From: a virus
Length of the DNA stretch: 52,778 nucleotides
Virus record (IMG/VR): IMGVR_UViG_3300035158_000865
Span: 1 to 52,778 of that record
Strand: one strand, 5' to 3'
The first letter of the stretch is position 1; each line of letters opens with the position of its first letter. Both the position numbers and the translations under genes were made by a program. Shown piece after piece: positions 49,226 through 52,778 of the stretch. The notes beneath the pieces are model-generated. The model searched no databases, was not told the origin of the DNA, and saw only the letters and a program-made list of their open reading frames with translations.

Positions 49226-49300
49226 TGGAGCGGGAGGCAGGAATTGAACACTGCACCGTATAGTTGGAAACTATACATTCTACCTTTAAAATACTCCCGC
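49226..49300 (-). tRNA. tRNA-Gly(UCC), copy with bulged T-stem
   Basis: 75 bases with CCA, anticodon TCC. The T-stem GCAGTG/CCTGC needs a bulged T to pair, and the D-stem (TTTT/GAAT) is weak. It may be decaying: a better tRNA-Gly(UCC) lies at 52144-52218. Confidence 0.7.
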
Positions 49301-51807: not shown

Positions 51808-51879
51808 TGGTAGTGAGGGAGAGAATTGAACTCTCTTGTACCTGCATATGAGACAGAACACTTGACCACAAGCCTCACT
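51808..51879 (-). tRNA. tRNA-Met(CAU) with a shortened D-arm
   Basis: 72 bases with CCA, anticodon CAT. Only 15 bases lie between acceptor and anticodon stems (normally about 19), leaving a minimal D-arm (CTTG/CAAG). It may be elongator Met or, if lysidine-modified, Ile(AUA). Confidence 0.75.
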
Positions 51880-52227: not shown

Positions 52228-52464
52228 TTATCTTCTTTCTACTTCAAAATCGTAAAACTTTACTACCTGGTAATTTGATAATCTTACTTGGTATACTTTT
52301 CTATATGTTTGGTTTTTTATATAATCATATACATTAACTATCATTCCAATTTCACCTGTAATTAGAACTTTTACAAAATCACCCTCTTTTATTTCTTCTT
52401 CTTTTACATTTTTACAATTTGAACAACTATCACAACCAACTGTTAATTTTTCTTCTTCTAACAT
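52228..52464 (-). CDS. small SH3-like protein between tRNAs
   Basis: 78 aa. It has CDSCSNCKN near the N-terminus and a beta domain (EGDFVKVLITGEIGMIVNVY). An AAGGAAGGG site precedes the ATG. It ends ten bases before tRNA-Gly. Not recognised. Confidence 0.6.
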   Translation of the reverse strand: MLEEEKLTVGCDSCSNCKNVKEEEIKEGDFVKVLITGEIGMIVNVYDYIKNQTYRKVYQVRLSNYQVVKFYDFEVERR

Positions 52465-52488
52465 GTTATTACCCTTCCTTTCTTTTTA

Positions 52489-52562
52489 TGGCGCCCCGTC
52501 CCGGTACTGACCCGAGAACTGGAGAGCGACAATCTCCTATGATACCATTTCACCAACGGGGC
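52489..52562 (-). tRNA. tRNA-Asp(GUC) with an atypical T-loop
   Basis: 74 bases with CCA, anticodon GTC, discriminator G as expected for Asp. The T-loop reads GTCAGTA instead of TTCRANY, losing the conserved T54 and A58. Confidence 0.8.
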
Positions 52563-52657
52563 TATTCATTTATTAAACTACAGACAATTTTTTCAACTAC
52601 AAAAATTGGTAGTAAAATTACTAATGCTATATAACAAATTATTTTTTTGATGCTCAT
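52562..52657 (-). CDS. 31-aa hydrophobic peptide
   Basis: ATG at 52657 directly follows a GC-rich hairpin, with no clear ribosome site. It encodes a membrane segment (IICYIALVILLPIFVVEKIV). The TAG stop overlaps the first base of tRNA-Asp, as with other small genes here. Confidence 0.45.
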   Translation of the reverse strand: MSIKKIICYIALVILLPIFVVEKIVCSLINE

Positions 52658-52778
52658 CGGGCACCGCCCGACGATTCTAGTTGAACCGCCTTTTCGGAAC
52701 TCTGGTTTAGGGGGACCACCAATTGCCCCACGGTCGAAGCACTATGTCCAACCGTTTGCTTACAGAAAAAACGATTAC
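52657..52778 (-). ncRNA. GC-rich structured RNA, truncated by the window end
   Basis: About half G+C, against about 30% around it. On the minus strand it can form TCGGGC/GCCCGA (52657-52671), an 8-bp stem with wobble pairs (52670-52677 with 52683-52690) and a pseudoknot (GGGG 729-726 with CCCC in 714-710, and TTGGT 722-718 with ACCAG 706-702, all +52000). G-U pairs occur only on the minus strand, which supports that orientation. Not a tRNA. Large ornate RNAs such as GOLLD and ROOL are known beside phage tRNA arrays, but I cannot match the sequence. Confidence 0.4.

Follow-up and report, generated by a model that had tools for sequence, protein, structure and literature searches.

In the transposon ISDra2 (PMC8612924), TnpA moves the element as single-stranded DNA, the reRNA derives from the 3′ end of tnpB together with the right end of the element and takes about 16 nt of flanking DNA as its guide, and cutting of the empty site has been proposed for TnpB; the known reRNA length given there is about 150 nt. 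TnpB itself processes the 5′ side of the RNA, as outlined in PMC10278001, and TnpB cutting can work as a gene drive in plasmids, as outlined in PMC11870625. Numerous transposase-free PATEs are described from Haloquadratum in PMC3119063. Judged by titles and the first lines of abstracts, no publication on phage elements that carry only an omegaRNA was evident.

Here, we report the analysis of a viral contig (IMG/VR record IMGVR_UViG_3300035158_000865; the whole stretch of 52,778 nucleotides is called the window) that stops within a mobile element. On sequence comparison, positions 52647 to 52778 (minus strand) are almost certainly the omegaRNA (reRNA)-bearing right end of an IS200/IS605 element, and there is a good probability that this is a right end with its omegaRNA in what is probably a miniature, nonautonomous copy beside a phage tRNA array. 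The window copy adds a further example to kinds that are already established (omegaRNAs, IS200/IS605 elements, and PATEs) and is no novel type of RNA. Two other copies are referred to throughout: L002, a miniature element of 298 bp in G001 (IMGVR_UViG_3300035158_000869), and L003 (IMGVR_UViG_3300005613_000092), in which the stretch forms the 3′ end of the gene for a 384-residue TnpB, with a Y1 TnpA adjacent. The features of the window are as follows.

52647-52778, minus strand: part of an IS200/IS605 right end, the element being cut by the contig end; 131 of 132 bases identical to L002 within the element
52647-52755, minus strand: predicted TnpB-type omegaRNA (reRNA) scaffold, matched by covariance models R1 and R2, both built without the window or L002
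52730-52755, minus strand: stem 1 hairpin (52755-52748 with 52737-52730), with two-sided changes in 8 of 8 pairs over 16 sequences
52710-52729, minus strand: stem 2 hairpin GGGG/CCCC (52729-52726 with 52713-52710), with two-sided changes in 3 of 4 pairs and one pair invariant
52702-52722, minus strand: possible pseudoknot of UUGGU (52722-52718) with ACCAG (52706-52702), pairable in 10 of 10 close sequences
52654-52674, minus strand: helix 3, the terminal right-end hairpin, TCGTCGGGC/GCCCGATGA (52674-52666 with 52662-52654), with two-sided changes in 4 of the 6 pairs tested, these being the outer six
52654-52770, minus strand: remnant of the C-terminal coding frame of tnpB, matching residues 347-384 of the L003 TnpB (tblastn, 71% identity over 38 residues), with its stop codon at 52656-52654
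52627-52646, minus strand: predicted guide, the first 16 to 20 nt of flanking phage DNA past the right end, by analogy with the ISDra2 reRNA as described in PMC8612924
52489-52562, minus strand: tRNA-Asp, the nearest tRNA, on the omegaRNA strand (ARAGORN)

Two viral contigs contained an exact 17-base pattern taken from the minus strand. The right boundary in the window, ...GATGAGCATCAA, is the point where similarity to the other copies ends, and ...ATCAA forms the terminus of the right end both here (52647) and in 17 of the 19 relatives whose ends were set (16 of the 17 by script, L043 by eye; L020 differs, and L036 is unclear). The minus-strand fold has a subterminal right-end hairpin, as in IS200/IS605 elements. 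By homology to tnpB-linked copies, the window end corresponds to the tnpB 3′ end and right end, the window itself showing the C-terminal frame of tnpB only; it holds just 132 element bases, and the left end and any tnpB would lie past the contig end. No direct end repeat of 12 to 199 bases was found in the window, and the exact flank pattern of the window locus had 0 matches in viral contigs, so that no empty site is known. The window end gave one 21-base match to phages (blastn, E 0.7) and none to plasmids, the peptide of its minus-strand frame had no match in phages and one in plasmids (E 9), and a promoter scan of the minus strand over 52450-52778 gave none.

The sequence-only reading had singled out 52657-52778 for its GC content, and the rise is borne out (52.5% against 32.4% window-wide, a level reached by 0.7% of all 122-nt stretches). 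Its stable minus-strand fold also held (52645-52778, -45.8 kcal/mol; z = -2.54; 0 of 200 shuffles as good); the plus-strand fold is at chance level (z = +0.17; 107 of 200 shuffles as good), so the strand was called correctly. The feature is real and cut by the contig end, with its edge at 52647 rather than 52657. The proposal of a structured minus-strand RNA with a possible pseudoknot is supported, but the label of an RNA without identity gives way to that of a transposon omegaRNA. The pseudoknot itself stands in part: UUGGU and ACCAG can pair in every close sequence, yet UUGGU is invariant, so the helix is without two-sided change, and ACCAG (by eye) falls in codons conserved in TnpB. ARAGORN agrees that the GC-rich end has neither tRNA nor tmRNA; the minus-strand frame is the TnpB C-terminus up to its stop. 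The end of a protein gene, named at the time as a finding that would count against an RNA, is half of the picture: in relatives the stretch is the tnpB 3′ end as well as omegaRNA, and the nearest relative has lost the remainder of tnpB. The suggested search for covariation in relatives found three stems with strong compensatory change over 16 sequences.

These sequences form alignment A3 (16 right ends, including the window and L002; three stems, 18 pairs), from which L009, L014, L016, L018, L019, L020, L034, and L036 are absent and in which L011 and L013 have the same element end and flanks. Pairing held in 94.7% of 283 cells (0 of 500 shuffles), and 80 cells carried a two-sided change (0 of 500 shuffles). 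The covariation score was 0.749, versus 0.201 in shuffles (0 of 500) and 0.063 to 0.132 with the partner slid; two-sided change affected 15 of the 18 pairs, a count matched by 15 of 500 shuffles. The stems were picked with the window and its relatives both in view, and the window thus had a part in the choice of helices. Covariance model R1, built from 14 right ends that include close relatives (about 90% identical), matched 52755-52647 with a score of 90.8 bits (E 1.3e-19); apart from this, a single window match was listed, with E 0.31. Model R2, built from the eight distant relatives alone, matched the same positions with 42.0 bits (E 3.1e-7), and here too just one further window match was listed (17.9 bits, E 0.074); L014 and L016 were unlisted with R2 up to E 1, and L018 reached merely E 0.25. 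By covariation and by both models, the scaffold structure is common to the window and its tnpB-linked relatives.

In the copies, TnpB matched NF040570 (150.5 bits; cutoff, 100) and TnpA matched NF033573 (109.6 bits; cutoff, 55), and the autonomous copies have the Pfam domains PF07282 and PF01797. Five close copies carry tnpB (L003, L015, L011, L013, and L010, the last cut at its 5′ side), with proteins 88 to 100% identical to that of L003; DNA identity to the window is 89.6 to 91.3%, with L004-L008 standing for them (L004-L008 and L027-L031 are the same places as these five, and L017 is the same place as L009). TnpB of L009 has 76% identity over 109 residues, that of L020 has 61 to 63%, and twelve more distant copies (L032-L043) have 47 to 69%. 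The left end follows ATG (seven rows) or TTG (L003) and then AA in 8 of 8 rows (L002, L003, L011, L012, L013, L014, L015, and L016, two of which have one flank in common), which makes the target resemble a start codon with AA after it. Near its terminus, the right end has an ATG of its own. A left-end hairpin was folded for L002, and its sequence is common to the seven other left-end rows.

Several variants of the family were seen in passing. At L014:10296-11288 (minus strand), a family left end, tnpA, and a right end occur with the tnpB core swapped in frame for a Cys-rich 208-residue protein, which keeps TnpB-like first and last residues and is HNH-like by eye only; it had no Pfam match above cutoff (one at E 0.015) and no NCBIfam match. 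At L016:6060-7235, family ends surround a TnpB about 25% identical to that of L003, which suggests nuclease exchange between shared ends; no Y1 transposase was found in the L016 record. L018:10112-10151 and L019:412-459 are right-end copies of 40 to 49 bp by BLAST, like terminal-only PATEs, with weaker full-length R1 matches (36 to 45 bits); the L019 copy starts shortly after an ATG. The contig of L020 (JAGVVH010000410.1), 4.4 kb long and with its TnpB aboard, belongs to a Bacteroidetes MAG, which hints weakly at the host group. For the L003 TnpB, 14 stretches in genome contigs fit a pattern, none of them confirmed, and a TnpB alignment at E 1e-40 found 2 of 296 genomes of the phylum of G011, G011 itself among them. 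Phage records with TnpB relatives numbered 342, with identities all below 60% and coverage of the query always under 80%; such relatives are common there, which makes a phage with a TnpB element nothing out of the ordinary.

Window positions 52644-52778 correspond to bases 166-300 of a 300-base query around the L002 element, with 134 of 135 bases identical. The L002 left end has 95.8% identity over 48 bases to that of L003, and other copies have left ends that match bases 1-51. The part derived from tnpB starts at base 136 when aligned to L003 (81.7% over 169 columns) or at 177 when aligned to L011 and L015; between the ends, no match to tnpA or tnpB was found besides the TnpB C-terminus at the right end. 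The miniature element consists of a left-end hairpin, an unrelated stretch, and a part from the tnpB 3′ end with the right end, and has neither tnpA nor tnpB. It starts at most 10 bases from a tRNA-Cys, the last of 11 tRNAs, with a tmRNA there too (ARAGORN). A second miniature copy (L012) opens G001 and is identical to that of L002 in 136 of 140 bases. L002 has both ends and no room for a transposase gene, as a PATE does; the window copy is visible in part only. Neither a Y1 transposase nor a TnpB TNB domain was found in the window or in G001. A promoter scan of the miniature element gave one weak match (1 found, 0.5 expected), and its comparison with phages gave 2 records of one phage (E 0.09).

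The window and G001 may be pieces of one phage genome split at the repeat, a reading that rests on the fitting orientation of the G001 start and on complementary gene and tRNA content. The window covers query bases 166-300 and the G001 start covers bases 1-140, leaving 25 bases missing between them. Among ten large proteins scanned per contig, the window has a DNA polymerase, a DNA helicase, and a DnaB-like helicase, and G001 has a primase, a clamp loader, a single-strand binding protein, an exonuclease, a ligase, and a ribonucleotide reductase; one of the 11 G001 anticodons (GTT) occurs among the 17 of the window. Tetranucleotide correlations with the G001 parts L021 and L022 were 0.89 to 0.91 for window parts 2 and 3 (0.88 between those window parts) and 0.78 to 0.81 for window part 1; the G001 part L002 gave only 0.55 to 0.81, and L015, from another contig, gave 0.83 with window part 3. 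With the correlations mixed in this way, composition is suggestive only. For the window against L021 and L022 (32.5 of the 45.3 kb of G001), none was found by tblastx at 1e-6 among the matches listed.

ARAGORN found only tRNAs in the window, and no tmRNA. In 5 of the 5 places where tRNAs were found near the element (window, L002, L003, L034, and L038), tRNAs and omegaRNA share a strand. A tRNA neighborhood is nonetheless no rule of the family, since 20 of 25 distinct element places had no tRNA in the DNA scanned (L011 and L013 counted as one place, the G001 copies L002 and L012 separately). Two tRNA-like stretches of the window are not in the ARAGORN list: 49229-49300 (minus strand; Rfam, 50.6 bits) passes the cutoff, and 51811-51879 (minus strand; 23.9 bits) is below it and may be a degenerate tRNA.

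GOLLD and ROOL RNAs are found near phage tRNAs, and they were the lead of the sequence-only reading. Tried against the GC-rich end, GOLLD, ROOL, RNase P, and tmRNA were rejected for want of an Rfam match (for tmRNA, of an ARAGORN match). A new GOLLD/ROOL-like or other phage RNA outside the known kinds would suit the adjoining tRNAs, yet the probability left to it is negligible: homology to transposon ends accounts for the stretch, models built without the window match it, and the Rfam scan of the whole window gave 16 matches at gathering score, all tRNA and none at the GC-rich end, where 52564-52778 searched separately had three chance-level matches, all far under their gathering scores. Nor is a protein gene at all probable, although a 96-codon frame running from the target ATG to the right-end stop is open in L002 and, as far as visible, in L012; it has no Pfam match at E 0.001 and no NCBIfam match at E 0.01, 4 of the 5 differences among the miniature copies alter a residue (by eye), and the RNA covariation in relatives is strong. 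With the stretch read as an omegaRNA-bearing right end, the question becomes what lay beyond the contig end. The window stops short of the content that separates the miniature from the complete form: its 132 bases lie in the tnpB-aligning part, and close copies share 14 or 15 of the first 20 bases. An element of the L002 subtype with all its genes would therefore look alike here, and the five close copies do carry tnpB. That a complete element of this subtype, with tnpA and tnpB just past the contig end, is present is nonetheless rather improbable, for the window shares 131 of its 132 element bases with L002 and 117 to 120 with the five close tnpB copies, and the second miniature copy, at the G001 start, fits the window's end. 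The identity places the window in the L002 subtype, which alone does not imply absence of tnpB; we consider it quite likely that the window copy is miniature rather than complete.

For such a miniature element, a mechanism can be proposed from the known systems. TnpA supplied in trans would move it as single-stranded DNA, transcription from co-oriented flanking genes would yield an omegaRNA with adjacent phage DNA as its guide, and TnpB from elsewhere, with this omegaRNA, would cut phage copies without the insertion, so that the element would be favored. By analogy, use of TnpB in trans by the miniature element is possible, at somewhat less than even probability; the intact state of the tested stems supports it, as does the length of the retained part, which exceeds that of the right ends detected by BLAST in L018 and L019. 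A phage element that acts as guide RNA only, keeping a working omegaRNA scaffold, with no transposase or nuclease of its own, transcribed with the tRNA operon and taking over a TnpB encoded elsewhere for homing into insertion-free genomes in coinfection, is a tentative proposal and the more doubtful of the two. The element may instead, at nearly even probability, be an inert relic without a TnpB user, its omegaRNA part persisting through the youth of the copies or the need of TnpA for a terminal hairpin. Right-end conservation could stem from recent copying and this same need; the miniature copies differ little (1 of 135 and 4 of 140 bases), too few differences to show selection on the RNA, and numerous transposase-free PATEs occur in Haloquadratum, as described in PMC3119063. 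Against an inert relic, the miniature keeps 122 to 163 bp aligning with tnpB 3′ ends (163 for L003; 122 for L011 and L015), about the length of the known reRNA (approximately 150 nt in PMC8612924), where L018 and L019 have BLAST matches of only 40 to 49 bp (with weaker full-length matches to R1), and the three tested stems are intact in both the window and L002.

The locus illustrates that a contig broken inside a repeated mobile element can pass for a novel RNA. The omegaRNA copy of the window goes unrecognized by Rfam, and its identification clears away a false lead to a new RNA class. In viral contigs the family comprises complete, miniature, nuclease-swapped, and right-end-only forms and is a ready case for testing the exploitation of TnpB in trans by omegaRNA-only elements.

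Set beside the known systems, the window RNA is unlike GOLLD and ROOL (PMC12286853) in being transposon derived, about 110 nt long, and without an Rfam match. Like the ISDra2 reRNA (PMC8612924 and PMC10097598), it spans the tnpB 3′ end together with the right end, has the stem 1 hairpin at its start, and ends a few bases past the tnpB stop, where the flanking DNA would serve as the guide; unlike ISDra2, its nearest copy is without tnpB, and the comparison is one of overall layout. The ISDra2-type pseudoknot of PMC10097598, between the stem 1 loop and the scaffold 3′ end, is fully pairable here in 6 of 10 close sequences and not in the other 4. The miniature element resembles the Haloquadratum PATEs (PMC3119063) in being IS605 related, with near-terminal palindromes and too little length for a transposase, but it occurs in phage contigs, and its retained part is identified as omegaRNA by covariation and by models from which it was left out. 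With the plasmid TnpB gene drive (PMC11870625) it would share the proposed logic of a guide that records the insertion site and cuts copies without the element; there, TnpB is the element's own, whereas here it would come from elsewhere.
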